Of a DNA stretch of 64,000 nt, positions 11,968 to 63,348 are shown piece by piece. Under the pieces are notes generated by a model, which saw nothing but the letters and a program-made list of their open reading frames with translations, was not told where the DNA came from and searched no databases. Location: the NCBI GenBank assembly GCA_035543335.1, contig DASZZH010000003.1, forward strand, positions 1 to 64,000, read 5' to 3'. Source of the stretch: Burkholderiales bacterium (GTDB taxonomy: Bacteria > Pseudomonadota > Gammaproteobacteria > Burkholderiales > JAHFRG01). Numbering within the stretch: position 1 is the first letter of the stretch; every line of letters starts with the position of its first letter. The position numbers and the translations under genes are program-made.

Positions 11968-12043
11968 TCCCCGATAGCTCAGTTGGTAGAGCGACGGACT
12001 GTTAATCCGCAGGTCGTAGGTTCGAGCCCTACTCGGGGAGCCA
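11968..12043 (+). tRNA. tRNA-Asn(GTT)
   Basis: The 76-base cloverleaf has acceptor arms TCCCCGA/TCGGGGA, discriminator G, an encoded CCA, anticodon GTT at 12001-12003, and a T-loop GGTTCGAGCC. Its 3' 45 bases form the left attachment repeat of the island that follows. Confidence 0.97.
11999..12043 (+). repeat. Left attachment repeat (att) inside tRNA-Asn
   Basis: These 45 bases from the anticodon loop to the CCA recur exactly at 30303-30347 and in decayed form at 20816-20859. An integrase remnant begins 14 bases beyond. This is the standard mark of site-specific integration into a tRNA 3' end. Confidence 0.9.
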
Positions 12044-12056
12044 AATAAATCAATCA

Positions 12057-12578
12057 CTAGCTCGAAACTAGCTTTTTCTTTTTAAGCTCACCGTGGGGAA
12101 AACGTGGAAAAATATCCACAACCTGCCCACCCCTGCCGGATTCGACACGCGAAGCAGCAACCGCTAGATGCTCAGTTCCATATTTCGCATAACGATCCAC
12201 CATGACGCGGGACTTCCAACCTCCAAGCTCTTTGAGCTCATCGGTGCTGGTGCCCCGTTGGCGATGCCAGGAAGCCCAAGTATGCCGAAGATCATGAAAG
12301 CGAAAATCCTGAAGCCCCGATTTCCTCACCGCTTCAAGCCAGCCGTTATTGCAAATACCCCGTCGGATCGGCTTTCCACGATAAGTAAAACAGTAGCTCT
12401 CATGCTTGCCGCGCTCCACTTCCAGCACCGCCACCGCATCACGGTTTAACGGAACACCTCGCGGCGTTCCATTCTTGGTACGGTCAAGCCAAGCCGTTTT
12501 ACGTTCCAAATCGACTCGGCTCCATTCCAAACCAGTAATCTCGCTCGAACGGCATCCTGTGGCAAGTGCAAAACGCAC
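12057..12578 (-). pseudogene. Tyrosine recombinase (integrase), C-terminal fragment
   Basis: The 173 readable residues are the catalytic half of a phage-type integrase: the first arginine in ATGCRSSEI, HDLRHTWASWH (HxxR), LGGW in place of the second His box, and the nucleophile tyrosine in MVDRYAKYG. The same frame continues upstream without a start to about 12660 (LISVCPPHLAAIV), so the N-terminal arm-binding and SAM-like domains are gone. It lies 14 bases from the tRNA-Asn 3' end, the usual place for the integrase of an island using that tRNA. With the N-terminus lost it is probably inactive. Confidence 0.85.
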
Positions 12579-15663: not shown

Positions 15664-17022
15664 CTACAGCGACTTCAAATACTCAATCAACTCGCTCTTT
15701 TCCTGATCCGTCAGCCCAAGTTTCAACAAGCCATTGTAGTGCTCAAGAACATCCTGCAACGTAGCAAAGCGGCCATCGTGGTAGAAGCCGCCCTTCTGGT
15801 GCGTCCAGAGCCCCGCGAGCGGCGCGGTACGGTACATGTGCGTCGGCGATCGGTCGGCTTGAAAAGAGTCGACACCCATCTCGCTCGGCGTGTGCAGGTT
15901 GTGCCCCGGCTCGGTGAAGAGCGGCGGGACGTGGCAGGTCGCGCACTGCGCCTTCTTGTTGAAGAGGTCTTTCCCGCGCAAGGCCGCCACCTGGTCAAAA
16001 CTGCCTGCAGGCGGCCTCGGCGCCGGGATGGCGATCTGATAGAAGTGCAGAGCGGCCAACTTCGATGTGATCAAGTCAGGCGTTCCCCGCGTATTGCCGG
16101 CGCCGCTCTTCGCCGATACCGCATACTGGTCTTTGTTATTGAGCCGCGCGTCAAAGAAAGTACCCGAGCCGTGCATCTCGGTTGCCGCGACGTAGGCATT
16201 CCAGTACGGAACTGAGCCGAAGCCCGTCCACGTATGAAGATTCACCCCTGCCAAACCGAACGCAGGTGGGATCAGCGTCCCCGCTTGTCCTCCGTCGGGC
16301 CGGAGAGCTTTGCCGTCCTTGTCGAGCTCGGCGTCGAAGCGACCGGGGCCCCAACTGGCGAGTACCTTCTTCACCGTTGCCACATCGACGCCGAGAAGAT
16401 CGGTGAAAGGCTTGAGGTTCGGCGCGAGCGAGACGATGGCGCCGACGTTCAAGTCGCGGTTGGCCCAGCCGTCCAGTCGCTTTCCGATGCCGGAGGCAAA
16501 AGAGTTGTCGACCGTCGAATGGCAGAAGGCGCACTGGATACCCATCGACCGGATCCTGCCCGCGCTGTCGAACTTGCCGGTCACCCCGACCACGGCGTTG
16601 AGCTTGAGCAAGGCGAGAGTGGTGGCCGGATCGTCTAGGTCCACCTTGCCCGCTTTGATCTGCGACACCAGCGCATCGGGCAAAGCCTCCGTGTCCACTT
16701 TGAGGCCGACCGACAGCGCCGTCTTCGGGCTCACTCCGCCTCCGACGCCACCGTTTTTTTCGCCAGCAATGGCTTTGTGCAACTGCAAGGCATCGCCCCA
16801 GAAAGCTTCGGAGCCAAAGGTGTCGAAGCGAAAGATCTGACGGCCTTCGTCCATCATGCGTTGCGCGTGCGCACTGATCTGGCGGTCGTTGTCGGAGAGC
16901 GGTTTTCGGGACGCTTGCGTCTGGGCATTTCCTTGTTCCCCGCTGCCCCATCCGAATCCGATAAGAAGGGTAAACCCAATCAGGACAGAGACTGCAACCA
17001 GCCACATCCCCTTATGTTTCAT
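15664..17022 (-). CDS. Di-haem cytochrome c peroxidase / MauG-like protein
   Basis: The 452-residue protein has an N-terminal membrane or signal segment (residues 7-25) and is exported to the periplasm. Two c-type haem motifs are present: CAFCH at 164-168 and CATCH at 360-364. The region after the second haem (MYRTAPLAGLWTHQKGGFYHDGRF) is the typical CCP/MauG C-terminal domain. Members reduce hydrogen peroxide or carry out oxidative cofactor maturation. Some relatives annotated as cytochrome c oxidoreductases have no known substrate. An insertion of about 100 residues before the first haem makes it longer than classical CCPs (about 330). Confidence 0.85.
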   Translation of the reverse strand: MKHKGMWLVAVSVLIGFTLLIGFGWGSGEQGNAQTQASRKPLSDNDRQISAHAQRMMDEGRQIFRFDTFGSEAFWGDALQLHKAIAGEKNGGVGGGVSPKTALSVGLKVDTEALPDALVSQIKAGKVDLDDPATTLALLKLNAVVGVTGKFDSAGRIRSMGIQCAFCHSTVDNSFASGIGKRLDGWANRDLNVGAIVSLAPNLKPFTDLLGVDVATVKKVLASWGPGRFDAELDKDGKALRPDGGQAGTLIPPAFGLAGVNLHTWTGFGSVPYWNAYVAATEMHGSGTFFDARLNNKDQYAVSAKSGAGNTRGTPDLITSKLAALHFYQIAIPAPRPPAGSFDQVAALRGKDLFNKKAQCATCHVPPLFTEPGHNLHTPSEMGVDSFQADRSPTHMYRTAPLAGLWTHQKGGFYHDGRFATLQDVLEHYNGLLKLGLTDQEKSELIEYLKSL

Positions 17023-17320
17023 GAGGAAACTCCTGTTTGTAAGAGATGAGATTGCTTGATACGAGATTCGTCCAAAAACATCACAAAACCAGAGATGCCT
17101 CTCAATTCAACAGCCAGACACCCCTTTCCTTGCCCCGCGACAGAGCGTAGATACATTGAACCTTTACTCATCCATGAAGGATCTTGAGGCAATTGCTATT
17201 ATATTAGATGAAGCTCAGGCGTCCAACGTTCTGGTGCGGGTAAAGCGCCAGCTGCGCTCTTCGGCGAGGATAAGCCCCATTATGGCGGGGCAGAAGGATA
17301 ACCCGCTGAATTGATGTTCG
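17023..17320. other. Intergenic, no gene seen
   Basis: About 300 bases. The first part is probably the leader of the di-haem gene (minus strand). The rest borders the IS91-type remnant. No gene or RNA is recognisable. Confidence 0.4.
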
Positions 17321-17701
17321 TTGATCGGTAGGTTGGCCCAGTGGAGTGCCTACGAAACGAAGAAGTTTACGGCCCGGACGTCCGCTCATGGCCGAGACGT
17401 GACGGTCGCTAACGACCCAAAGCAGACACTCAGGGGACGACTGAACCCTGCAGACAGAGCGGTATCAGCGCAGCTCATTCGCAAGGTGTACGAAGCCGGT
17501 CCGCTCGCATGCCCCAAGTGCAAGGGGCCGATGCTAGTGATCGCGCTGATCGACGATCCGGCAGTCATCCGACGCATCCTCGAGCACCTGGGCCTGTGGG
17601 CGCCGCGGGCAATGCAACGAAGTCCGCCACTGGGTCCCGAGGCCTGGCCGGTGCACGCCAGCCTGCCCCTCACCTACCACCCGGTTCCCGACATCGCCTG
17701 A
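17321..17701 (+). pseudogene. IS91/IS801-type transposase, C-terminal remnant
   Basis: The 126 readable residues contain ACPKCKGPMLVIALIDDP and VIRRILEHLGLW, followed by PLTYHPVPDIA. This is the C-terminal tail of Y2/HUH transposases of the IS91 family as I know it. The catalytic N-terminal part with the two tyrosines is missing. IS91-like elements move by rolling-circle transposition and often pick up adjacent DNA, so this may mark the entry point of the VWA gene pair that follows. Confidence 0.7.
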
Positions 17702-17967
17702 GCGCAGGGCGGCGCGCCCCGCGCTTGACTTGGCGCTCCCGGGGACTGCATAATTTGCCGCAACTTCCGTTGCGAAGCGCCCCGGCAGCGCGGATCGGAC
17801 GGTGGAGCACGCGCGGGCAGCCCCGATCGCGCGCCATCGGGCGCACCGAGCACCAATCCGGCATCACTGCAGCGTTGCATTGGCACAGGATGCTGGCGAC
17901 GGGCGCATTGATTTTCCTATTTCTTCGTATGACAATCGCCTATATGCGGTAGTAAAAGGGGGTCCCC
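17702..17967. other. IS91-remnant downstream region
   Basis: GC-rich, with several short inverted repeats (for example GCGCGCCATCGGGCGC near 17829). It may hold the replication end of the IS91-type element. A GGGGG ribosome-binding site at 17959-17963 belongs to the next gene. Confidence 0.35.
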
Positions 17968-19419
17968 ATGACAGGCTCGCAATTCTGGATGATCTGGCCG
18001 GATAACGCCATGTTGTCGGCGCTGATCCTGTTTCTCATCGCCATGATTTTTCTTTACGCCGCGCGCACGCCCATGCACGGCCTCATCCGCTCCATCGGCC
18101 ATGCGCTCAGCGGCCCCCTGCGCATGGGCGCGCGCTGGCTGTTTGTGGCGGCAACAGAAATGAGGGAGCGCAACAAGTCCGTCTTGATGGCGCACGGACG
18201 CCAGGAGGTGGGCCAGCGCGTGGAGCGCGAATTCGAGCGCGTGGGCGTCCTGGTCACGCGCGACCTGCAGGGCTATCCGACCCTGCAGCGCAAGCTCCTC
18301 GAGGAGATCACACGCATCGAGGAGGATTACAAGAAGTGTGGCGAGGTGCCGCCGCCGCCTCCCGACTGGGTCGAGGCCGTCGCCGCGGTCGCCAACATCA
18401 AGTCAGGCGGCACCGAAGTGGTGCAGAAGATCCTCGACGAGATCCGCCAGTCGGTCAACAAAATCCACGACAAGGCCATTGCCGAGTATCGCCGCTCCTA
18501 CGAGACGCGACACAAGATCCTGGAAGGGTTCATGCCGTTCTGGCGGTCCGTCGACAAGACCATGACGCAGGTCGACAAGAAAGTGACCGGTCTGCAGGAA
18601 AGCGCCGGGGCCGTGGACGCGCAGATGGAAAGATACAAGCAGATCAACGCCAAGACCGACAAGGCCGAACATGCCCTGACGAACTCGGCATTCACCCAGT
18701 TCGCCATCGCGGCCATCGTCATGGCCGTGGCGATAGGCGGGGCGTTCATCAACTTCAAGTTGATCGCACTGCCGATGTCGGAAATGGTCGGCGCGGGCGA
18801 CTACATCACCTCGTCGCTGCGCACCTCCGAAGTGGCCGCGCTCGTGATCATCCTCGTCGAGGCGTCGATGGGGTTGTTCCTGATGGAGTCCCTGCGGATC
18901 ACGCACCTCTTCCCGCGCATTGCCAACCTGAACGACCGCATGCGGCATCGCATGATCTGGATATCGCTTGTCCTCCTGGTAACGCTGGCGGGAATCGAGG
19001 CCGCCCTCGCGCTGATGCGCGACATACTGATCGCCGACAAGCAGGCCCTGCTGCAAACGCTTGCCGCCACGCAGCCGACCGCGGCCACAGAAGGCTGGAT
19101 TGCGCGCATTCCGACCGCCGGCCAGATGGTATTGGGATTCATCCTGCCCTTCGCGCTGGCTTTTGTCGCGGTCCCGCTCGAGTCCTTCATCCATTCGACC
19201 AGGACCGTCGCCGGCGCGCTGCTGGTCATGCTGGTCCGCGCGCTGGGGTTCGCGCTGCGCATCCTCAGCAATCTGGCGCGGCAGACGAGCCGCGTGCTGA
19301 TCCACTTCTACGATCTGCTGATCATATTGCCGCTTCTCCTCGAGCACCTAGTAAGGGCGACGCGCGGCGGCGGGGCGGGGGTGAAGGCGCGACCCCTGGA
19401 TATCGGCGGCAAACTGTAG
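17968..19419 (+). CDS. Multi-pass membrane protein with large cytoplasmic helical region, unknown
   Basis: The protein has 483 residues. One membrane helix is near 14-33, a long charged helical region lies at 60-235 (QSVNKIHDKAIAEYRRSY, VDKKVTGLQESAG), and then come at least five more hydrophobic segments (about 245-265, 290-310, 330-350, 392-415, 418-440). I do not recognise the family. The next gene, 24 bases downstream, encodes a lipoprotein with a VWA-like fold, so the two probably form one envelope complex. The ribosome-binding site AAGGGGG is strong. GC and codon use are high and uniform, unlike the degraded neighbours, which suggests a working module. Confidence 0.75.
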   Translation: MTGSQFWMIWPDNAMLSALILFLIAMIFLYAARTPMHGLIRSIGHALSGPLRMGARWLFVAATEMRERNKSVLMAHGRQEVGQRVEREFERVGVLVTRDLQGYPTLQRKLLEEITRIEEDYKKCGEVPPPPPDWVEAVAAVANIKSGGTEVVQKILDEIRQSVNKIHDKAIAEYRRSYETRHKILEGFMPFWRSVDKTMTQVDKKVTGLQESAGAVDAQMERYKQINAKTDKAEHALTNSAFTQFAIAAIVMAVAIGGAFINFKLIALPMSEMVGAGDYITSSLRTSEVAALVIILVEASMGLFLMESLRITHLFPRIANLNDRMRHRMIWISLVLLVTLAGIEAALALMRDILIADKQALLQTLAATQPTAATEGWIARIPTAGQMVLGFILPFALAFVAVPLESFIHSTRTVAGALLVMLVRALGFALRILSNLARQTSRVLIHFYDLLIILPLLLEHLVRATRGGGAGVKARPLDIGGKL

Positions 19420-20986: not shown

Positions 20987-21618
20987 TCGCCTTGCGTTGA
21001 AGGATGTATTTGCTGATCGGGCCTTTCGTCCACTCAACAAACGAAGAGATATTATGCTCATCTCGCGCATGCGCGCATGCGCGCATGCGGGAAATCATAA
21101 ATTAATTTTGTTTCCGCACGCAAAATAATCACGTTGATTGCATTTAATTTAGATCATATCCCTGCGCAGCAAATTATTTTAGTGTTTGACGTTCCCGGTC
21201 CCGACATGTCAGTACTTTTCCAGCTTTTTTCCTCGGTCGGCCCCCGGCATAACATGGAAGCTGCTCTTCAGGCCCAGACGCATCTTGGAATGTTCGATGA
21301 CCGTGCCGCTTCCCGCGCTTAAAATTTTCTGTAGAATGTCATATCGTGACTTGTGTTTCCGTGACGCCGCAGCAGAACGGCCACCCACTGATTGCTGGTA
21401 TCGCGGGGCCAATCGCCGGGGGCGGTGAGAGTTCTTACATGCAAGAAGATGTGAAGAAAAATGAACAAAACATGAGTGTTTTATCAAGATGAGCAGATCG
21501 ATACTGAACGTGCGGCACAACCGAGGGAATCGGATCGGGGATTGCACTATGTCCGGGAGAGTTTGGGAAAAATGGACTTCATGACCCCTTTGAGGGCAGT
21601 TCCAGTGGGAAGCACGTC
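20987..21618. other. Gene-poor stretch upstream of the C1 operon
   Basis: About 630 bases without a convincing gene; short open frames on both strands look random. It contains a 26-base alternating purine-pyrimidine tract at 21064-21089 and AT-rich DNA at 21100-21180. The promoter of the operon that starts at 21619 probably lies here, but no clear -35/-10 pair was found. Confidence 0.5.
21064..21089. repeat. Alternating purine-pyrimidine tract, GCGCATGC x3
   Basis: Three exact tandem copies of GCGCATGC (21065-21088) make an unbroken alternating CG/CA/TG tract, a sequence type prone to form left-handed DNA or slip during replication. It lies about 530 bases before the C1 operon. Confidence 0.7.
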
Positions 21619-30161: not shown

Positions 30162-30260
30162 AGTGCCCAGTTTTGCCCTGGTTGGGGACCCAATCCAAAC
30201 GTAGCAAAAACGTAGCACGCTTGGCGAGCGTTGGCGAGTGTTGGCGAGTGTTGGCGAGTG
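30162..30260. repeat. Island right-end module: 32-bp motif plus direct repeats
   Basis: 30162-30193 is a 32-base motif (AGTGCCCAG...GGTTGGGGACCCA) with relatives at 32329, 32490 and 60257. Next come two copies of AAACGTAGCA (30197-30206 and 30208-30217, period 11), then four copies of TTGGCGAGTG or TTGGCGAGCG (30221-30260). The att repeat follows 42 bases later. The set resembles arm-type integrase binding sites beside an att core. A similar set, mirrored, lies next to the tRNA-His att fragment at 60223-60288. Confidence 0.7.
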
Positions 30261-30302: not shown

Positions 30303-30347
30303 CTGTTAATCCGCAGGTCGTAGGTTCGAGCCCTACTCGGGGAGCCA
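30303..30347 (+). repeat. Right attachment repeat (att) of the tRNA-Asn island
   Basis: These 45 bases are identical to 11999-12043, from the anticodon loop to the CCA of tRNA-Asn. It lacks the 5' half and cannot make a tRNA. It marks the right border of an 18.3-kb island. Confidence 0.92.
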
Positions 30348-30348
30348 T

Positions 30349-31332
30349 CTAAATGCAAAAACCGGATACCGCTGCTATTGAATAATCATTAATCGATTCA
30401 GATAGCACCCAATTAGTGATCCAAAGAACTAAAAACCTGGTGAGCTTGATCTTAAGCGCATGCACAATGCTATGTGCGACGTCGTCCTGGACTGCAAAAA
30501 TGTCCGTCAAATCGCGATCGTAGCGCTCAGCCCAGAGTGAACGCTCCGACTTCGTGTCGACAAGGTTTGCGGTTATACGGACCTGATCGCCCTGGCGGCG
30601 GACGCTGCCTTCGACGAGGTACCGCACTCTCAGCGCCGCAGCAATCTCGGCGAGTGGCTTGTTCGTTGCCTTGTAGGCAAAGCTAGAGTGGCGTGAGATG
30701 ACAAAGAGACCGGAGAGCTTCGAGAGGTCTGTAATGATGTCATCGGTAATGCCGTCCGCGAAGTATTCGTGCTTGGGATCGGCGCTTATGTTGACGAAGG
30801 GCATCACTGCGAGCGATGGTTGGTCCTCGGTTGAGCGCAAGAGCGCCGAAGCTGGACGGGCCATCTGCTCGCGGCCCTGAACTATCGTCTCCCCGGGCGC
30901 CGCTGCAGACACGCTCGCTTGTCGGAAAGCGATCTTGGGCGTATAGGATCCCTTCGGCACGTCGATCTCAATCAGGTCCTCGCACCCCTCGCTGTCATAG
31001 TACTCGTGGAGCTTTGCGCGCATGCGGCTGGCCATGACGCGGACGACGGGGTCGACGGTGGGATCAAAAGTGGCAGGCCGTTCAAAGACCTCCACGGCGA
31101 TGGTGTAACCCTTAAGGTAATTGGTACCACCGTCCAATGCCCTATCGACGATAAACTGCAGGAACCGGCACAGGCGTTTAGATTGCGCAAACTCGGGACT
31201 TGCGAGGATCCGATTAAGCTGAGTTCGGATCACCGCAGTCTGTGTCTCGGTCCAATTGACCGCCGGTTGGTCCATCTGTACCGCCTTGCCATTGCTTGCG
31301 CTGGATGCCACTCGTGCAAGCCCGTGCATCAA
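30349..31332 (-). pseudogene. Adenylate-cyclase-like/TolB-like regulator, 3' truncated at island border
   Basis: The 327 readable residues have an N-terminal domain found in proteobacterial proteins annotated as adenylate cyclase or wHTH regulators (RLCRFLQFIVDRALDGGTNY, VVRVMASRMRAKLHEYYDSE). A TolB-like nucleotide-related domain follows (PSLAVMPFVNISADPKHEYF, VEGSVRRQGDQVRITANLVD). Homologues normally carry several hundred more residues with TPR repeats. Here the family match ends near VAHSIVHALKIKLT (about 30440), and the frame runs into unrelated sequence, stopping next to the att repeat. It looks like a gene cut when an element excised or inserted. Confidence 0.7.
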
Positions 31333-31589
31333 GGGTATGGGTTATGTGCCCGAGTTGACTGGTGAAAAGCTCCATCGCTGTTTATCTAAGAGTGGAGTCC
31401 ACTTGGGTTCTGTTACTGTTACTTACTGTTAAATACTAGGACAAACCGCCCCCTTTAGCTAGACTTTCATATTTAGGTGTAAAAAAGCTTGAACGGGAAA
31501 GTCGATATGTGTCGCCCCTCGGCTGTCGCAGCCATCGGCTGACCCGAATAGCTACCCCAAAACACGTGTTATGAAAGAAGGAGACCGAA

Positions 31590-32117
31590 ATGACCAGCAA
31601 ATTTATCAAAATAGCCCTTTTCTCTGGGGCACTCATGGCCCTTGCGCCCGGGGTCGTCCTAGCAGACCCGATACCAAAGAAGGGGACCACGCCCTACGTG
31701 ACGCACTTCATTTTTCGGCCTTTGATGAGCATTGACATTCCCGGCCTCGGTACGGCCACCGCGCTGGAGGCGGTCGGAACCACCGAAAACATGAAGGGAG
31801 AGAAGATGCTCGACAAGATGTCAGCACAGTGCGCAGCGCTGAGCGTTGCGTCGGGCGACAAGAAATACATTGACGGTGCCTGCGTGTTGGTCGATAGCGA
31901 CGGTGACAAGATTTTCTCGACCTTTGATACTCGCGACGTCGACAAGTCGCAGCCGAAAAGGAATTGTGGCACCCATATCATCACGGGCGGCACCGGCAAA
32001 TACGCGGGAATCACTGGGAGTGAGCCATTTGCTTGTATCGCAATGCCTCCACTGGCTGGTCCCGGCGGCTATACTGCGATGGACATTCCGCACAACACAA
32101 CCTGGGAGATTAAGTGA
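31590..32117 (+). CDS. Secreted hypothetical protein
   Basis: The 175 residues have a clear signal peptide (KIALFSGALMALAPGVVLA, cut after ALA near 25). The mature part is small and beta-rich, with four cysteines that could form disulfides and a glycine motif TGGTGKYAGITGSEPF. That motif is like those in allene-oxide-cyclase-barrel or similar periplasmic proteins; this resemblance is weak. GAAGGAG precedes the ATG. It is a single-gene unit ending at the terminator at 32221. Confidence 0.75.
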   Translation: MTSKFIKIALFSGALMALAPGVVLADPIPKKGTTPYVTHFIFRPLMSIDIPGLGTATALEAVGTTENMKGEKMLDKMSAQCAALSVASGDKKYIDGACVLVDSDGDKIFSTFDTRDVDKSQPKRNCGTHIITGGTGKYAGITGSEPFACIAMPPLAGPGGYTAMDIPHNTTWEIK

Positions 32118-32220
32118 GCCTGTCGCTAACGCTCAGCGCTGCGCATCGTGCTGACACAAAACTAAGGAATAAGCGCTGCAGTTACTCAGCCGCTTGAAAG
32201 AAGTAATCCGGCTTTGACAA

Positions 32221-32255
32221 GGGCACCTACAAACATTGGGGTGCCCGGTTTTTTT
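32221..32255 (+). terminator. Rho-independent terminator
   Basis: Stem GGGCACC (32221-32227) with GGTGCCC (32240-32246) is followed by GG and seven T. It lies about 100 bases after the secreted-protein stop. Confidence 0.85.
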
Positions 32256-32328
32256 CCCGACCATCGCTGCAGAGGTTTTCATGAAAATCACCCCCGCACA
32301 CTATCCGTGTTTTCCATGAACCTGTTCT

Positions 32329-32521
32329 GTGGCTCCCCAACCAGGGCAAATCTGGGCACTGGCAGGAGCGGCTAAGACTTCCCTAACGTACCAGCTCAAC
32401 GGGCGTCGCTTGCACGCGGGCGCGTACGAATTTGCTCGTGCGCCCCAGTGAAGCGATTCGTTAAATTAGCTGCACCGTCAATACCCAAGAGTGCCCAGAT
32501 TTGCCCTGGTTGGGGAGCCAC
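32329..32521. mobile_element. MITE-like element with perfect 32-bp inverted ends
   Basis: The ends at 32329-32360 (GTGGCTCCCCAACCAGGGCA...) and 32490-32521 are exact complements over 32 bases, with 129 bases between. The same motif occurs singly at 30162-30193 and 60257-60288 near att fragments, always with the GTGG end facing the att core. This pair may be a short internally deleted element made of two element ends. No target duplication is visible. No protein is encoded. Confidence 0.7.
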
Positions 32522-32560
32522 AACTCTGGACTGCACTCAACGGCAACTCTCGGTAACTGG

Positions 32561-46306: not shown

Positions 46307-47344
46307 ATGCACGCCATATGGGAAACCCATCTGCGCAACACCGGCGCCAATCTGACCGATGACACAGCCCGTGATTTCGGCGACCTGCGCGCCGAGCTGC
46401 GCACCGCACGGGATGGCACAGTCCTATGCGACCTTTCGCAATACGGTCTGCTCCTGTTTGCGGGAGACGAGGCCCAGGCTTTTTTGCACGCCCAGCTTTC
46501 CAGCGACGTCAAAAAAATTCATCTTGCCGCCGCCCAATACAGCAGCTACTGTACGGCCAAGGGACGTATGCTGGCGAATTTTCTGCTCTGGCAATCCAAT
46601 GAAGGTTTTTTTGCCCAGCTTCATGCCGGTTTGCTCGAATCCATTCAAAATCGTCTCACCAAATTCGTGCTGCGCTCCAAAGTGAAAATCAGCAACGTCA
46701 GCGACAGCCATGTCCGTCTGGGACTCGCCGGCGTTCAGGCCGAAGCATTGGTGAAAAAACACCTCGGCAGCCTGCCCCCAGCCAGGCTGAGCGTGGTTCG
46801 CGAGAAGGCGGCGACCTTGATTCGCCTGTCTCCCAATCGTTTCGAAATAATTGTCCCGCACCAGGGAGCGGCGAAACTGTGGGATGCCCTGCGTACCGAA
46901 GCAAAGTCGGCGGGCAGCGCCTGCTGGGACTGGCTCAACGTCCGCGATGGCGTTCCGGTGATTACCGCGGCAACCCAGGAGCAATTTGTGCCGCAAATGG
47001 CGAACCTGGAACTCCTCGGCGCGGTGAGTTTTAATAAGGGTTGCTATCCGGGGCAAGAAATTGTCGCGCGCATCCAGCACCTGGGTTTGCTCAAGCGGCG
47101 CATGTATTGGGCTCACGTGGACATTGAAGCTTCGCCGCAACCGGGCGACGAGCTTCTCAGCAAGGATATCGAAGGCCAGGCGAGCGGAATGATAGTGAAC
47201 GCCGCAGCGGCGCCTGAAGGCGGTTATGATGTGCTGGCTGTCGTGCAAATCAGCAGTGCGCTAAGTGGCGAGGTACGCTGGAAATCCGTGGACGGCGCCG
47301 CTTTGAAATTGTTGCCCCTGCCCTATTTACCTAGGGACCTCTGA
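46307..47344 (+). CDS. ygfZ: YgfZ/GcvT-like folate-binding protein
   Basis: The 345-residue protein has the GcvT-like fold with the YgfZ signature KGCYPGQEIVAR, whose cysteine is needed for function. YgfZ helps in the repair or assembly of certain iron-sulfur proteins such as MiaB, using tetrahydrofolate. The last codons (PRDL) and the stop TGA come from the left end of the repeat element that begins at 47333, so the native C-terminus has been trimmed or replaced there. Confidence 0.9.
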   Translation: MHAIWETHLRNTGANLTDDTARDFGDLRAELRTARDGTVLCDLSQYGLLLFAGDEAQAFLHAQLSSDVKKIHLAAAQYSSYCTAKGRMLANFLLWQSNEGFFAQLHAGLLESIQNRLTKFVLRSKVKISNVSDSHVRLGLAGVQAEALVKKHLGSLPPARLSVVREKAATLIRLSPNRFEIIVPHQGAAKLWDALRTEAKSAGSACWDWLNVRDGVPVITAATQEQFVPQMANLELLGAVSFNKGCYPGQEIVARIQHLGLLKRRMYWAHVDIEASPQPGDELLSKDIEGQASGMIVNAAAAPEGGYDVLAVVQISSALSGEVRWKSVDGAALKLLPLPYLPRDL

Positions 47345-47737
47345 TTAGGTCCTCCGCGAATTGCGTTGCAGGTAAAATGCGGATGGATGCAAGGCGCGCG
47401 ACGAAGGTCGTAGCCGGGACTACGACACCGAGGAGCGCAACGACGCAGACACCGCATTTTACCGCAACCCGGACAGGACGGCTGCCGCGACACGGTAAGC
47501 GAAGCTGGGGGTGCGGGAGCGGCAGCATGAGCACCCCGTTTTACGGTGTTGCTTGCGGCAGCTTTGCGCCCCTGCCCGCACCACGTTGCGCGAGACCGAG
47601 TTCGGGGCGCCTTTCCGGGCGGACTGCTTTGTCGCTCGGCTTGCCAAGGGGAATGGCCATTGGCTGCGCCTCGCTTCGCGCATCCCATCCCGGAAAGCCG
47701 CCGTCGCAACCGCGTGGGACTTAATCAGAGGTTCCCT
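47333..47737. repeat. Dispersed 19-bp-TIR element, copy 2
   Basis: The left end reads AGGGACCTCTGATTAGGTCC (47333-47352) and the right end GGACTTAATCAGAGGTTCCC (47717-47736), near-perfect complements. The interior resembles copies 1 and 3 and holds the hairpin GTCGTAG-CCGGGA-CTACGAC near 47407-47426. It gives ygfZ its stop codon on the left. On the right it gives AGAGG 8 bases before the ATG of the DUF4936 gene. No transposase is encoded. Confidence 0.85.
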
Positions 47738-47739
47738 TA

Positions 47740-48021
47740 ATGCCGCTCAATTTTTACATTTATTACCGGGTGGAGCAGGCCCATGCTGCGTCGCTGGAAC
47801 TCCGTATTCACGCCATGCAAACCGCTTTGCGGAAACAGACCGGGGTTGCCGGACGTCTGCTGAAGAAACGCGACGATTCGCTGTTGTGGATGGAAATCTA
47901 CGAAGATGTCGCCGAATCCGGTCCGTTTGAAGATGCGCTGATGCAAGCTGTCGAAAAATACCACCTGAAACAATTTGTGGAAGCGGGATCACAACGGCAT
48001 ACCGAGTGCTTTGTCCTTTAA
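47740..48021 (+). CDS. DUF4936 family protein
   Basis: This 93-residue soluble alpha/beta protein (MPLNFYIYYRVEQAHAASLE..., LWMEIYEDVAESGPFEDALM) fits DUF4936, a small family of betaproteobacteria related in fold to ferredoxin-like dimeric barrels. Function unknown. The ATG is 3 bases after the repeat element, whose end supplies a plausible ribosome-binding site (AGAGG). The NRDE gene starts 3 bases after its stop. Confidence 0.8.
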   Translation: MPLNFYIYYRVEQAHAASLELRIHAMQTALRKQTGVAGRLLKKRDDSLLWMEIYEDVAESGPFEDALMQAVEKYHLKQFVEAGSQRHTECFVL

Positions 48022-58922: not shown

Positions 58923-60059
58923 ATGAGTGTCATTCAGAACAAAAAAGCCTTCCATGACTATTTCGTCGAAGAAAGATACGAGGCGGGCATGGTCCTCGCG
59001 GGGTGGGAAGTCAAGGCGATTCGCGCCGGCCGTTGCCAGATCAAGGAAGCCTATGTCGTGGTGCGCAAAGGCGAGATTTTCATCATCGGCTGCCATATCA
59101 GTCCGTTGGCGACCGCATCAACCCATATCACGCCCGACCCTACGCGCACCCGCAAACTGCTGCTGCACACGGAGGAAATCGGCAAGCTGATCGGTAAGGT
59201 AGAGCGCGCCGGCTACACGCTGGTGCCGCTCGACATTCATTACACGCGCGGCAAAATCAAGCTGGAAATCGGGCTCGCCAAGGGCAAAAAACAGCACGAC
59301 AAGCGCGAAACGGAAAAACAGCGCGAATGGCAGCGCGAGAAACAGCGTCTGTTGCGCGCCAAGACAAGAAAGGATGAGTTTAAGGAACCTCTGATTAAGT
59401 CCTCCGCAGATTGCGTTGCTGGCAAAATGTGGATGGATGCGAGGCGCGCGACGAAGATCGTAGCCCGAACTACGAAGCCGAGGAGGACCCTCGTAGCGTC
59501 GCACCTGCGAAGCTGTGCAGTGAAGCGGGCCAACCGCTCGCCTTCGCGGTCGCACGTGCCGAGGCTCCACGCTCCGGCGAGCACAACGCAAACACCGTAT
59601 TTTGCCGCAACCCGGAGGGACGGCTGCCACGACACAGTGAGCGAAGCTCTGGGGTGCGGGAGCAGCAGCATGAGCGCCCCGTTTAACAGTGATTCTTGCG
59701 GCAGCTTGCGCCCCTGGCCCGCACCAGGCCCGCCGACACGGCGTTGGCGGAGCCATCCGGAGCGGGAGGCGGGCCAATGGCGCTTCCCGCAAACAGCTGG
59801 CTTTGCCAGTAACGTGTCCACGCGCCCTGCGCGAGACCGAGTTCGGGGCGCTTATCCGGGTGGTCTTGCTTTGTTGCTCGGCTTGCCAAGGGGGCTGACC
59901 CTTGGCGGCGCCTCGCTTCGCGTGTACGCTCGCGGACCGTCGCGCTTCGTAAGTGCGCAGGGGAGCGAGCGCTGCGCTGCCTCCGGATCGCACGTGCCGA
60001 GGCCCCGCCTGCGGCGGCGCTATCCCGGAAAGCCGCCGCCGCAACTGCGTGGGACTTAA
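58923..60059 (+). CDS. smpB: SmpB, read through into a repeat element
   Basis: The first about 148 residues are normal SmpB ([30 protein letters not shown], then the basic tail [20 protein letters not shown]). SmpB binds tmRNA and rescues stalled ribosomes. The natural end is lost: a 5-base tandem duplication (ACAAG at 59364) shifts the frame past the TGA implied by the copy at 63251. The frame then enters the repeat element at 59384 and stays open to 60059, giving 378 residues. The extra 230 residues are repeat-derived and unlikely to be functional. Confidence 0.85.
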
Positions 60060-60070
60060 TCAGAGGTTCC
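59384..60070. repeat. Dispersed 19-bp-TIR element, copy 3 (full length)
   Basis: The 687 bases have perfect 19-bp inverted ends GGAACCTCTGATTAAGTCC. This longest copy contains most segments seen in copies 1 and 2. It lies between the smpB end and the tRNA-His fragment. A hairpin near 59458-59477 (CGTAG...CTACG) matches those in the other copies. No transposase motif is found in any frame. Confidence 0.88.
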
Positions 60071-60073
60071 ATG

Positions 60074-60119
60074 ATGGGGTGGACGATGGGATTCGAACCC
60101 ACAACAACTGGAATCACAA
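60074..60119 (-). repeat. tRNA-His 3' fragment (att of the second element)
   Basis: These 46 bases are identical to 63272-63317, the 3' half of tRNA-His plus one flanking base. The 5' half is absent. It marks the left border of an element of about 3.2 kb whose right border is the intact tRNA-His. Confidence 0.88.
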
Positions 60120-60592
60120 CTGGACCATAGGATTAGGGTATTTTATTAATCAGTGCCTTGCAATACTCGCCATTTCCAAATTAATACCAGACAGCCTTAA
60201 AAAGTTTCACAAAGCTTAAAAGTGGTTACGTGATGGTTACGTTGGTTCTAGTTCCCGTGGCTCCCCAACCAGGGCAATTCTGGGCACTGGCAAGCGTGTT
60301 AATCGCGTAAAAAGGCTATTTCATCCAGTCATATTTTCTCCCGACTTGGACTGGAAAAGACTGGTTGTCGCAAATTCAAACCGCCAACCAATGAATGAAA
60401 AGTTGAAGTTTATTCTCTAACTTTTTGATTATTGGGACACCCTCCCTAGCACAGCACCGCTAACACACGCCAATTCCCACGTTTTCCCCTTCCCTTAGGT
60501 TTAACTAAATTCTTTTGTAGAGTGTTCGTGTCACAAAAACTGGTACAGTTATATCGGTGAACGGTACACAACCTGAGAGAGGCAGGTAGTCG
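60120..60592. other. Left end of the tRNA-His element, no gene
   Basis: About 470 bases without a gene. It holds the paired TGGTTACGT repeats and the 32-bp motif, and further on AT-rich DNA that probably includes the promoter of the downstream signalling gene. No integrase reading frame remains. Confidence 0.5.
60223..60288. repeat. Element-end module: paired TGGTTACGT plus 32-bp motif
   Basis: TGGTTACGT occurs at 60223-60231 and 60234-60242 (period 11). The 32-base motif GTGGCTCCCCAACCAGGGCA... follows at 60257-60288, differing from the copy at 32329 at one base. Order and polarity relative to the att core mirror the module at 30162-30260. Confidence 0.7.
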
Positions 60593-63183: not shown

Positions 63184-63250
63184 CGACAAGCGCGAAACGG
63201 AAAAACAGCGCGAATGGCAGCGCGAGAAACAGCGTCTGTTGCGCGCCAAG
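63184..63250 (+). repeat. Duplicate of the smpB 3' end
   Basis: These 67 bases are identical to 59297-59363 inside smpB. After it comes AAAGGACGAG, where smpB likely once had its stop (AAAGGATGA). It is followed by 21 bases and the intact tRNA-His. Copy and tRNA fragment together show that a block of smpB end plus tRNA-His 3' end was duplicated around the element. Confidence 0.88.
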
Positions 63251-63272
63251 AAAGGACGAGTAATTAAATTTA

Positions 63273-63348
63273 TGGGGTGGACGATGGGATTCGAACCCAC
63301 AACAACTGGAATCACAATCCAGGACTCTACCTTTGAGCTACGTCCACC
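63273..63348 (-). tRNA. tRNA-His(GTG)
   Basis: The cloverleaf has the extra 5' G at 63348 paired with C, acceptor GTGGACG/CGTCCAC, anticodon GTG within GGATTGTGATTCC, an encoded CCA, and T-loop GGTTCGAATCC. Last gene of the Pro-Arg-His tRNA operon; its 3' half is the att site. Confidence 0.96.

Follow-up and report, generated by a model that had tools for sequence, protein, structure and literature searches.

A perfect 33-bp inverted repeat in a Burkholderiales genome as a probable fusion of two attachment ends of a tRNA-Asn-associated serine-recombinase family

In a 64,000-nucleotide stretch of a Burkholderiales bacterium genome (the window; positions 1 to 64,000 of contig C3), a 195-nt structure at 32328-32522 consists of two arms, TGTGGCTCCCCAACCAGGGCAAATCTGGGCACT on the left (32328-32360) and its reverse complement on the right (32490-32522), that are complementary at 33 of 33 positions across a 129-bp spacer. 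We read this structure, with a probability of roughly 0.7, as two attachment ends of the same kind fused head to head by a deletion, in which the arm motif, here termed M, would be the P' half of the attP site of LSR-type serine recombinases directed at tRNA-Asn. The perfect inverted ends of the original prediction were borne out and gain one base on each side with respect to the 32 bp reported there. Such a repeat is beyond chance, and across the whole window the only other perfect inverted 20-mers up to 2 kb apart are those of a short palindrome at 21066-21089. The RNA fold of the entire 195 nt is exceptionally stable (z = -12.45, equalled by 0 of 200 shuffles), and the DNA fold of the 129-bp interior alone is unremarkable by comparison (z = -1.60, equalled by 13 of 200), so that the stability comes from the arms. 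The features of the structure and its surroundings are collected in Table 1.

Table 1. Features of the inverted repeat, of the segment that it would close and of related places (positions in the window unless a contig is given).
Feature	Position	Strand	Basis or remark
Left arm, candidate P' half-site (M), element side rightward, facing inward	32328..32360	+	nhmmer E 4.2e-14, not independent (in seed)
Right arm, identical candidate P' half-site, element side leftward	32490..32522	-	nhmmer E 3.1e-13, not independent (in seed)
Interior, 129 bp, inner arms of two P' end kinds, apparently joined	32361..32489	.	alignment of 8 chosen ends and blastn
CTAACG within left P' end	32383..32388	+	motif scan
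TTAACG within right P' end	32459..32464	-	motif scan
P end, tRNA-Asn 3' end then degenerate P half-site (CAAAAACCGGATAC)	30323..30372	+	leave-one-out E 1.3e-8
tRNA-Asn 3' half, from anticodon loop through CCA; presumed tyrosine-island attR and LSR-element target	30303..30354	+	
Cargo ORF, TolB_N domain, in 2.2-kb segment	30349..31332	-	ORF list and Pfam
Cargo ORF, 175 aa, without Pfam or PADLOC match	31590..32117	+	
P-P' pairs	C3:30323-32522; C20:21511-23397; C35:15723-19430; C41:5597-6178		profile searches
Single M copy (P' end), 110 bp ahead of tRNA-Asn 3' half	30162..30192	-	repeat search and profile
Single M copy (P' end), by repeated GTAACCA and tRNA-His 3' fragment	60258..60288	+	repeat search and profile
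tRNA-Asn(GTT), intact target gene type	11968..12043	+	tRNA search
Tyrosine integrase, partial domain, of the island in the original prediction	12057..12578	-	context only

The interior is made of two parts. On its right side, positions 32437-32507 are 82% identical to C11:38675-38745 of the same genome (blastn), and the left half is closest, judged by eye among eight chosen ends that were aligned, to C35:19399. Both halves contain TAACG, spaced as in certain other P' ends. The extended motif YTAACG lies at +23 to +29 on the inner side of M in 7 of 43 copies, as against 0.8% of random 60-mers; two of the seven positives are the arms of the structure itself and a third, on C11, is a manual addition, and among the 43 copies are L070, which is cut off after 6 bases, and the chance-like L071, with L076 left outside because it missed the regular expression. 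Because the halves resemble different P' ends, a fusion of two ends is favored over a transposing MITE, and since each element has one P and one P' end, a deletion between two opposite-facing elements would be the simplest origin.

The identity of M is indicated by LSR elements of relatives. In genome G321, an LSR of 539 aa with Resolvase, Recombinase and zinc-ribbon domains (phrog_95 integrase) belongs to an element whose far end, 4.4 kb from tRNA-Asn, carries M itself; directly after the tRNA-Asn gene, the second half of M is contained in ATTAGGTACAAATCTGGGCACTC. The element ends also enclose small ORFs and a Rep-like protein (a weak match, E 7e-4, below the Pfam cut-off). The LSR frame ends in ...TNLGTLGGVPRFVPNWLPDLGSNQGQPD, passing through GTGCCCAGATTTG (the P half-site) into tRNA-Asn. 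The same arrangement at tRNA-Asn is found in G375, whose LSR (538 aa) has the same three domains and is 70% identical to that of G321, both C-termini reading ...GVPRF[V/A]PNWLPDLGSNQGQPD and ending inside tRNA-Asn. It is from this anatomy of reading frame and tRNA that the P half-site is taken to be coding sequence as well, and M to be its mirror image P'. In G375, the copy of M whose outer flank resembles that of G321 stands at the start of another contig (L107), so its link to the G375 LSR is indirect; M at L108:391, also considered as the far end of this element, was set aside in favor of the L107 copy, the better candidate for that end. The order tRNA-Asn, partial Rep-like gene and M recurs in L069, from a Betaproteobacteria MAG, where the Rep-like part is 57% identical to the Rep-like gene of the G321 element over 115 residues.

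A putative attP can be deduced from G321: in the circular form, two inverted half-sites of 13 bp each, GTGCCCAGATTTG and CAAATCTGGGCAC, would serve as binding sites for the LSR, and the 25-bp core between them includes a copy of the 3' end of tRNA-Asn. The point of crossover was placed with the help of G017, an independent case on one contig, in which attL (GCCCTGGTCGGGGAGCCAATTTGGTGCAAAACTGGGCACTC, beside its LSR), attR (CCAGTGCCCAGATTTATCCGTTTTGGCGAGCCATACTTTTCTTGG, its degenerate M matching at E 6e-5) and an unoccupied duplicate of the target (GCCCTGGTCGGGGAGCCATACTTTTCTTGG, whose 151-bp flank is 86% identical to that of attR) all share GAGCCA; the crossover is therefore assigned to GAGCCA/TGGCTC. 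Recombination with the tRNA within TGGCTC would join P to the intact tRNA and leave P', that is M, at the far end, and the P half-site would double as codons near the LSR end (V-P-R/S-F...W), the frame continuing into the tRNA. Hybrid junctions consistent with one attP x attB crossover are seen both in the G017 trio and at a paralogous empty site of the window's own genome on C35 (about 21250-21330), where a tRNA-Asn 3' half directly precedes the flank TGGAAATACTAGAACC; at C20, C6 and C3:60k, a P' end precedes a flank similar to it. M stands at the far end of an LSR-encoding element in G321 and, in degenerate form, in G017.

At E <= 1e-80, 15 of the 399 genomes searched in the order have relatives of this LSR; the genome of the window and its two congeners are not among them. 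Among the relatives' C-termini that were inspected, 18 of 25 contain VP.F...W, and for 10 loci out of 22, ARAGORN placed a tRNA where the LSR ends (tRNA-Asn in 4, tRNA-Arg in 3, tRNA-Ser in 2 and tRNA-Glu in 1). These LSR frames running into a tRNA gene belong to the set L106, L108, L119, L139-L144, L148-L150 and L152. An M-like far end (E <= 1) was found in only 1 of 11 further LSR-relative stretches beyond G321 and G375, namely the degenerate one of G017, a scarcity that may stem from the short length of those stretches, from other tRNA targets or from P' differing between LSR branches. Conversely, no LSR match at E <= 1 was found in any of the 15 foreign stretches that carry M or M-like sequence, the LSR-holding ones of G321 and G375 excluded.

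Within the genome of the window, M is dispersed. A profile search over 337,578 bases places it at 26 sites with E < 1e-6, values that are not independent, as the 40 seed sequences include most of the copies later scored. With blastn, 32300-32550 gave 45 matches (E <= 1, a place being counted on either strand), and a 24-base arm pattern with up to 3 mismatches was found at 19 places, the reversed pattern at 0. Most copies are orphans: 4 of the 26 pair with a recognized P end and 22 do not. Outside this genome, blastn at E <= 0.001 found M in none of 59 further genomes of the order, two of which belong to the same genus (one of these only 85% complete), and a pattern search tolerating at most 3 mismatches likewise found none in the 6 of those 59 that it covered. 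The degenerate pattern CCCCNNNNNGGGCAAAWCTGGGCAC retrieved 13 stretches from the GTDB species set, in which the genome's own records may be left out, and 9 of these are titled Betaproteobacteria, Burkholderiales or Ramlibacter; allowing one mismatch, it occurs in 4 genomes out of 399 from the order, the window's own included. In IMG/VR, the pattern had no match. L071 and L076, retrieved as candidate copies, look like chance matches and do not figure in the E < 1e-6 counts. A forward motif resembling the tRNA T-arm (TTCGAG/CTCGAG) lies within 25 bases outside M in 6 of the 26 own and 10 of the 15 foreign copies, that of L073 belonging to a P arm; canonical integration does not predict such a motif at this place.

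A dispersed motif, perfect 33-bp inverted ends and a short non-coding interior are also what would be expected of a MITE-like non-autonomous element, in which the inverted copies of M act as terminal repeats and the 193-195 bp are mobilized as one piece by an enzyme supplied in trans. Further copies with the same interior, which that prediction proposed to seek, did not emerge: the window's own genome yields a single full-length match, and neither this genome nor the 59 others (E <= 0.001) has a second place where both arms enclose this interior. Phage records lack the full-length structure, plasmids gave only two chance-level matches, and the arm likewise had no meaningful match in either DNA collection. 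Outside the arms, where the next bases on the + strand are C and A, no target-site duplication was seen by eye. The differing inner arms argue against a MITE as well, and so does the fact that both arms are P', whereas an element of the LSR family has a P and a P'; they are attachment half-sites rather than the terminal repeats of DDE elements. The transposase and recombinase families covered in this genome were Phage_integrase, IntI, Y1_Tnp and Resolvase. We regard a MITE as unlikely.

Fusion of two P' ends accords with the presence in this genome of several segments that have attachment ends and no recombinase of their own. The Resolvase domain (PF00239) had 0 matches in the genome, in a search whose control was positive for 10 genomes out of 14. 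With E allowed up to 10, the LSR itself matched no better than a 30-aa stretch with E 0.1, away from 30323-32522. P ends were recognized by eye and by profile at five places, and leave-one-out profiles, whose E-values are independent of the seed and cover P ends only, re-found all of them (C3:30323, 1.3e-8; C20, 4.6e-12; C35, 7.7e-10; C15, 6.5e-7; C41, 5e-8). For four of them, a P' partner in the correct orientation lies at a distance of 0.6-3.7 kb; for the C15 end, none was seen in the 12 kb inspected. The C20 segment carries two cation-efflux proteins. Between the P and P' ends of C35, at 16105-19254 (L032 4106-7255), we observed genes for ThiF/E1-like, Prok-E2_E, HTH and aspartyl-protease-like proteins, possibly a ubiquitin-like modification or defence cassette. 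The right arm of the inverted repeat is likely the distal P' end of the 2.2-kb segment 30323-32522, which would begin at the presumed attR of the tyrosine-integrase island. The fit is imperfect: the P end of this segment is degenerate, and the M copy closest to it is the left arm, in the wrong orientation, the properly oriented partner at 32490-32522 being the next one. As for the original prediction that the structure is composed of two ends of integrative elements, the ends do correspond to P' ends of LSR elements, but they match half-sites of a separate serine-recombinase family and not the ends of the tyrosine-integrase island at tRNA-Asn, to which they had been ascribed.

Small P/P'-bounded segments with differing genes (cation efflux, ubiquitin-like E1/E2, TolB_N), together with the inverted orientation of the attachment half-sites, lend some plausibility to a boundary still in use, at which an LSR acting in trans would flip or exchange the 129 bp as in an inversion or an integron-like cassette. 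The genome, however, has no detected LSR, the interior holds no ORF of its own of at least 80 aa, and recombination of P' with P' is not known among LSR reactions; we consider this explanation quite improbable. The presence of three integron integrases in the genome and of TAACG/CGTTA inside the structure also raised the suspicion of an integron attC. The RYYYAAC and GTTRRRY boxes are not complementary, only TAAC and GTTA pairing, and a scan for attC-like sequences did not return the interior, so this candidate was dropped. The integrases themselves (TIGR02249, all above the cut-off) map to C38:54466-55407, C23:9305-10243 and C25:223002-223945, the third split over two frames, and hairpins resembling attC were noted at C38:58236-58302, C23:12732-12789 and C8:8106-8174.

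Movement of a REPIN or REP-type pair by a RAYT transposase, which would account for short dispersed repeats with one closely spaced inverted pair, is highly improbable: M matches an attachment half-site with known partners, and the absence of a Y1_Tnp gene (PF01797, 0 matches in an assembly 98.5% complete; 6 of 14 genomes positive in the control search) led us to rule it out. A conserved regulatory RNA or terminator hairpin, suggested by the very stable fold, was dismissed as equally improbable in view of the Rfam search, which at the gathering threshold found no family here and only four tRNAs in the whole window, of the ordinary stability of the interior, and of the two same-genus genomes, which have no match, where the original prediction had taken a unique structure conserved in place in distant relatives as the sign of such an RNA. 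Synteny with one of them, G001, was limited, over 13.8 kb up to the end of a contig, to the downstream MFS/acyltransferase gene, which leaves the structure without an orthologous empty site.

Under the favored reading, a fusion of two P' ends, the right P' end would close the 2.2-kb segment 30323-32522, presumably mobilized in the past, and the left one would derive from a second, opposite-facing intruder within that segment, whose own element was lost when a deletion brought the inner arms together at about 32390-32437; the structure would now be inert. The arms are identical to each other, which is not required of a fusion between diverged ends; as both equal the common form of M, this identity is weak evidence.

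Other repeats were observed around the M copy near 60 kb in the window. A block of about 190 bp with repeated GTAACCA is common to C3:60104-60292, C20:23363-23553, C6:52520-52715 and C35:21295-21459, and precedes differing tRNA-like 3' halves, that of tRNA-His in C3 and another in C6; its GTAACCA repeats are probably arm sites of a tyrosine integrase, and the same is probable for those by the copy at 60258-60288. Beside smpB lies a repeated unit of about 690 bp (59379-60070) with inverted ends GGAACCTCTGATTAAGTCC and GGACTTAATCAGAGGTTCC, which has relatives near 47333-47740 and 86-304 and looks like a separate MITE-like element. The smpB 3' end and the 3' part of tRNA-His are duplicated (59297-60119 and 63184-63317) around a PAS-GGDEF-EAL gene, possibly through another tRNA-targeted integration.

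LSR integrative elements are well known. Like them and like LSR phages, the elements described here have the same order of domains, inverted half-sites on either side of a short crossover in attP, and hybrid attL and attR; unlike them, they target the 3' end of a tRNA, and the LSR frame ends inside it. In published work, an integration site (tRNA-Met) is predicted for only one serine-recombinase phage (PMC6536676), and the att sites of both integrase types are treated in bulk (PMC12884075). CIMEs are described as elements that have lost their integration and transfer genes, have kept attL and attR and are often stacked at one site (PMC5704250). The segments reported here resemble CIMEs, the likeness being judged on ends and recombinase, in that they are recombinase-less, as is 30323-32522, have both attachment ends and a tRNA target; the integration of later elements in the att site of earlier ones likewise recalls CIME tandem accretion. 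They differ in tracing to a serine-recombinase family, in a setting where most copies of M are single ends and where the structure itself pairs two like ends as an inverted repeat. In an open-licence library, no paper was recognized as a description of this family.

With this assignment, an unexplained inverted repeat becomes readable as an attachment half-site, and CCCCNNNNNGGGCAAAWCTGGGCAC provides a sequence handle with which cargo segments that lack a recombinase can be located by their ends in uncultured Betaproteobacteria; integrase-first methods would be expected to miss them. It also points to a clade of LSRs in which the same DNA serves at once as C-terminal coding sequence, attachment half-site and tRNA target. 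More speculatively, and rather doubtfully at present, uncultured Betaproteobacteria may sustain an integron-like cassette economy based on a tRNA-targeting LSR, with P/P' cassettes of 0.6-3.7 kb moved in trans. If so, cassettes for metal efflux, ubiquitin-like E1/E2 proteins and other functions would be captured at tRNA-Asn and at tRNA-like fragments, the C-terminal codons of the LSR would double as its attachment site, and the structure at 32328-32522 would be a minimal, cargo-free derivative.
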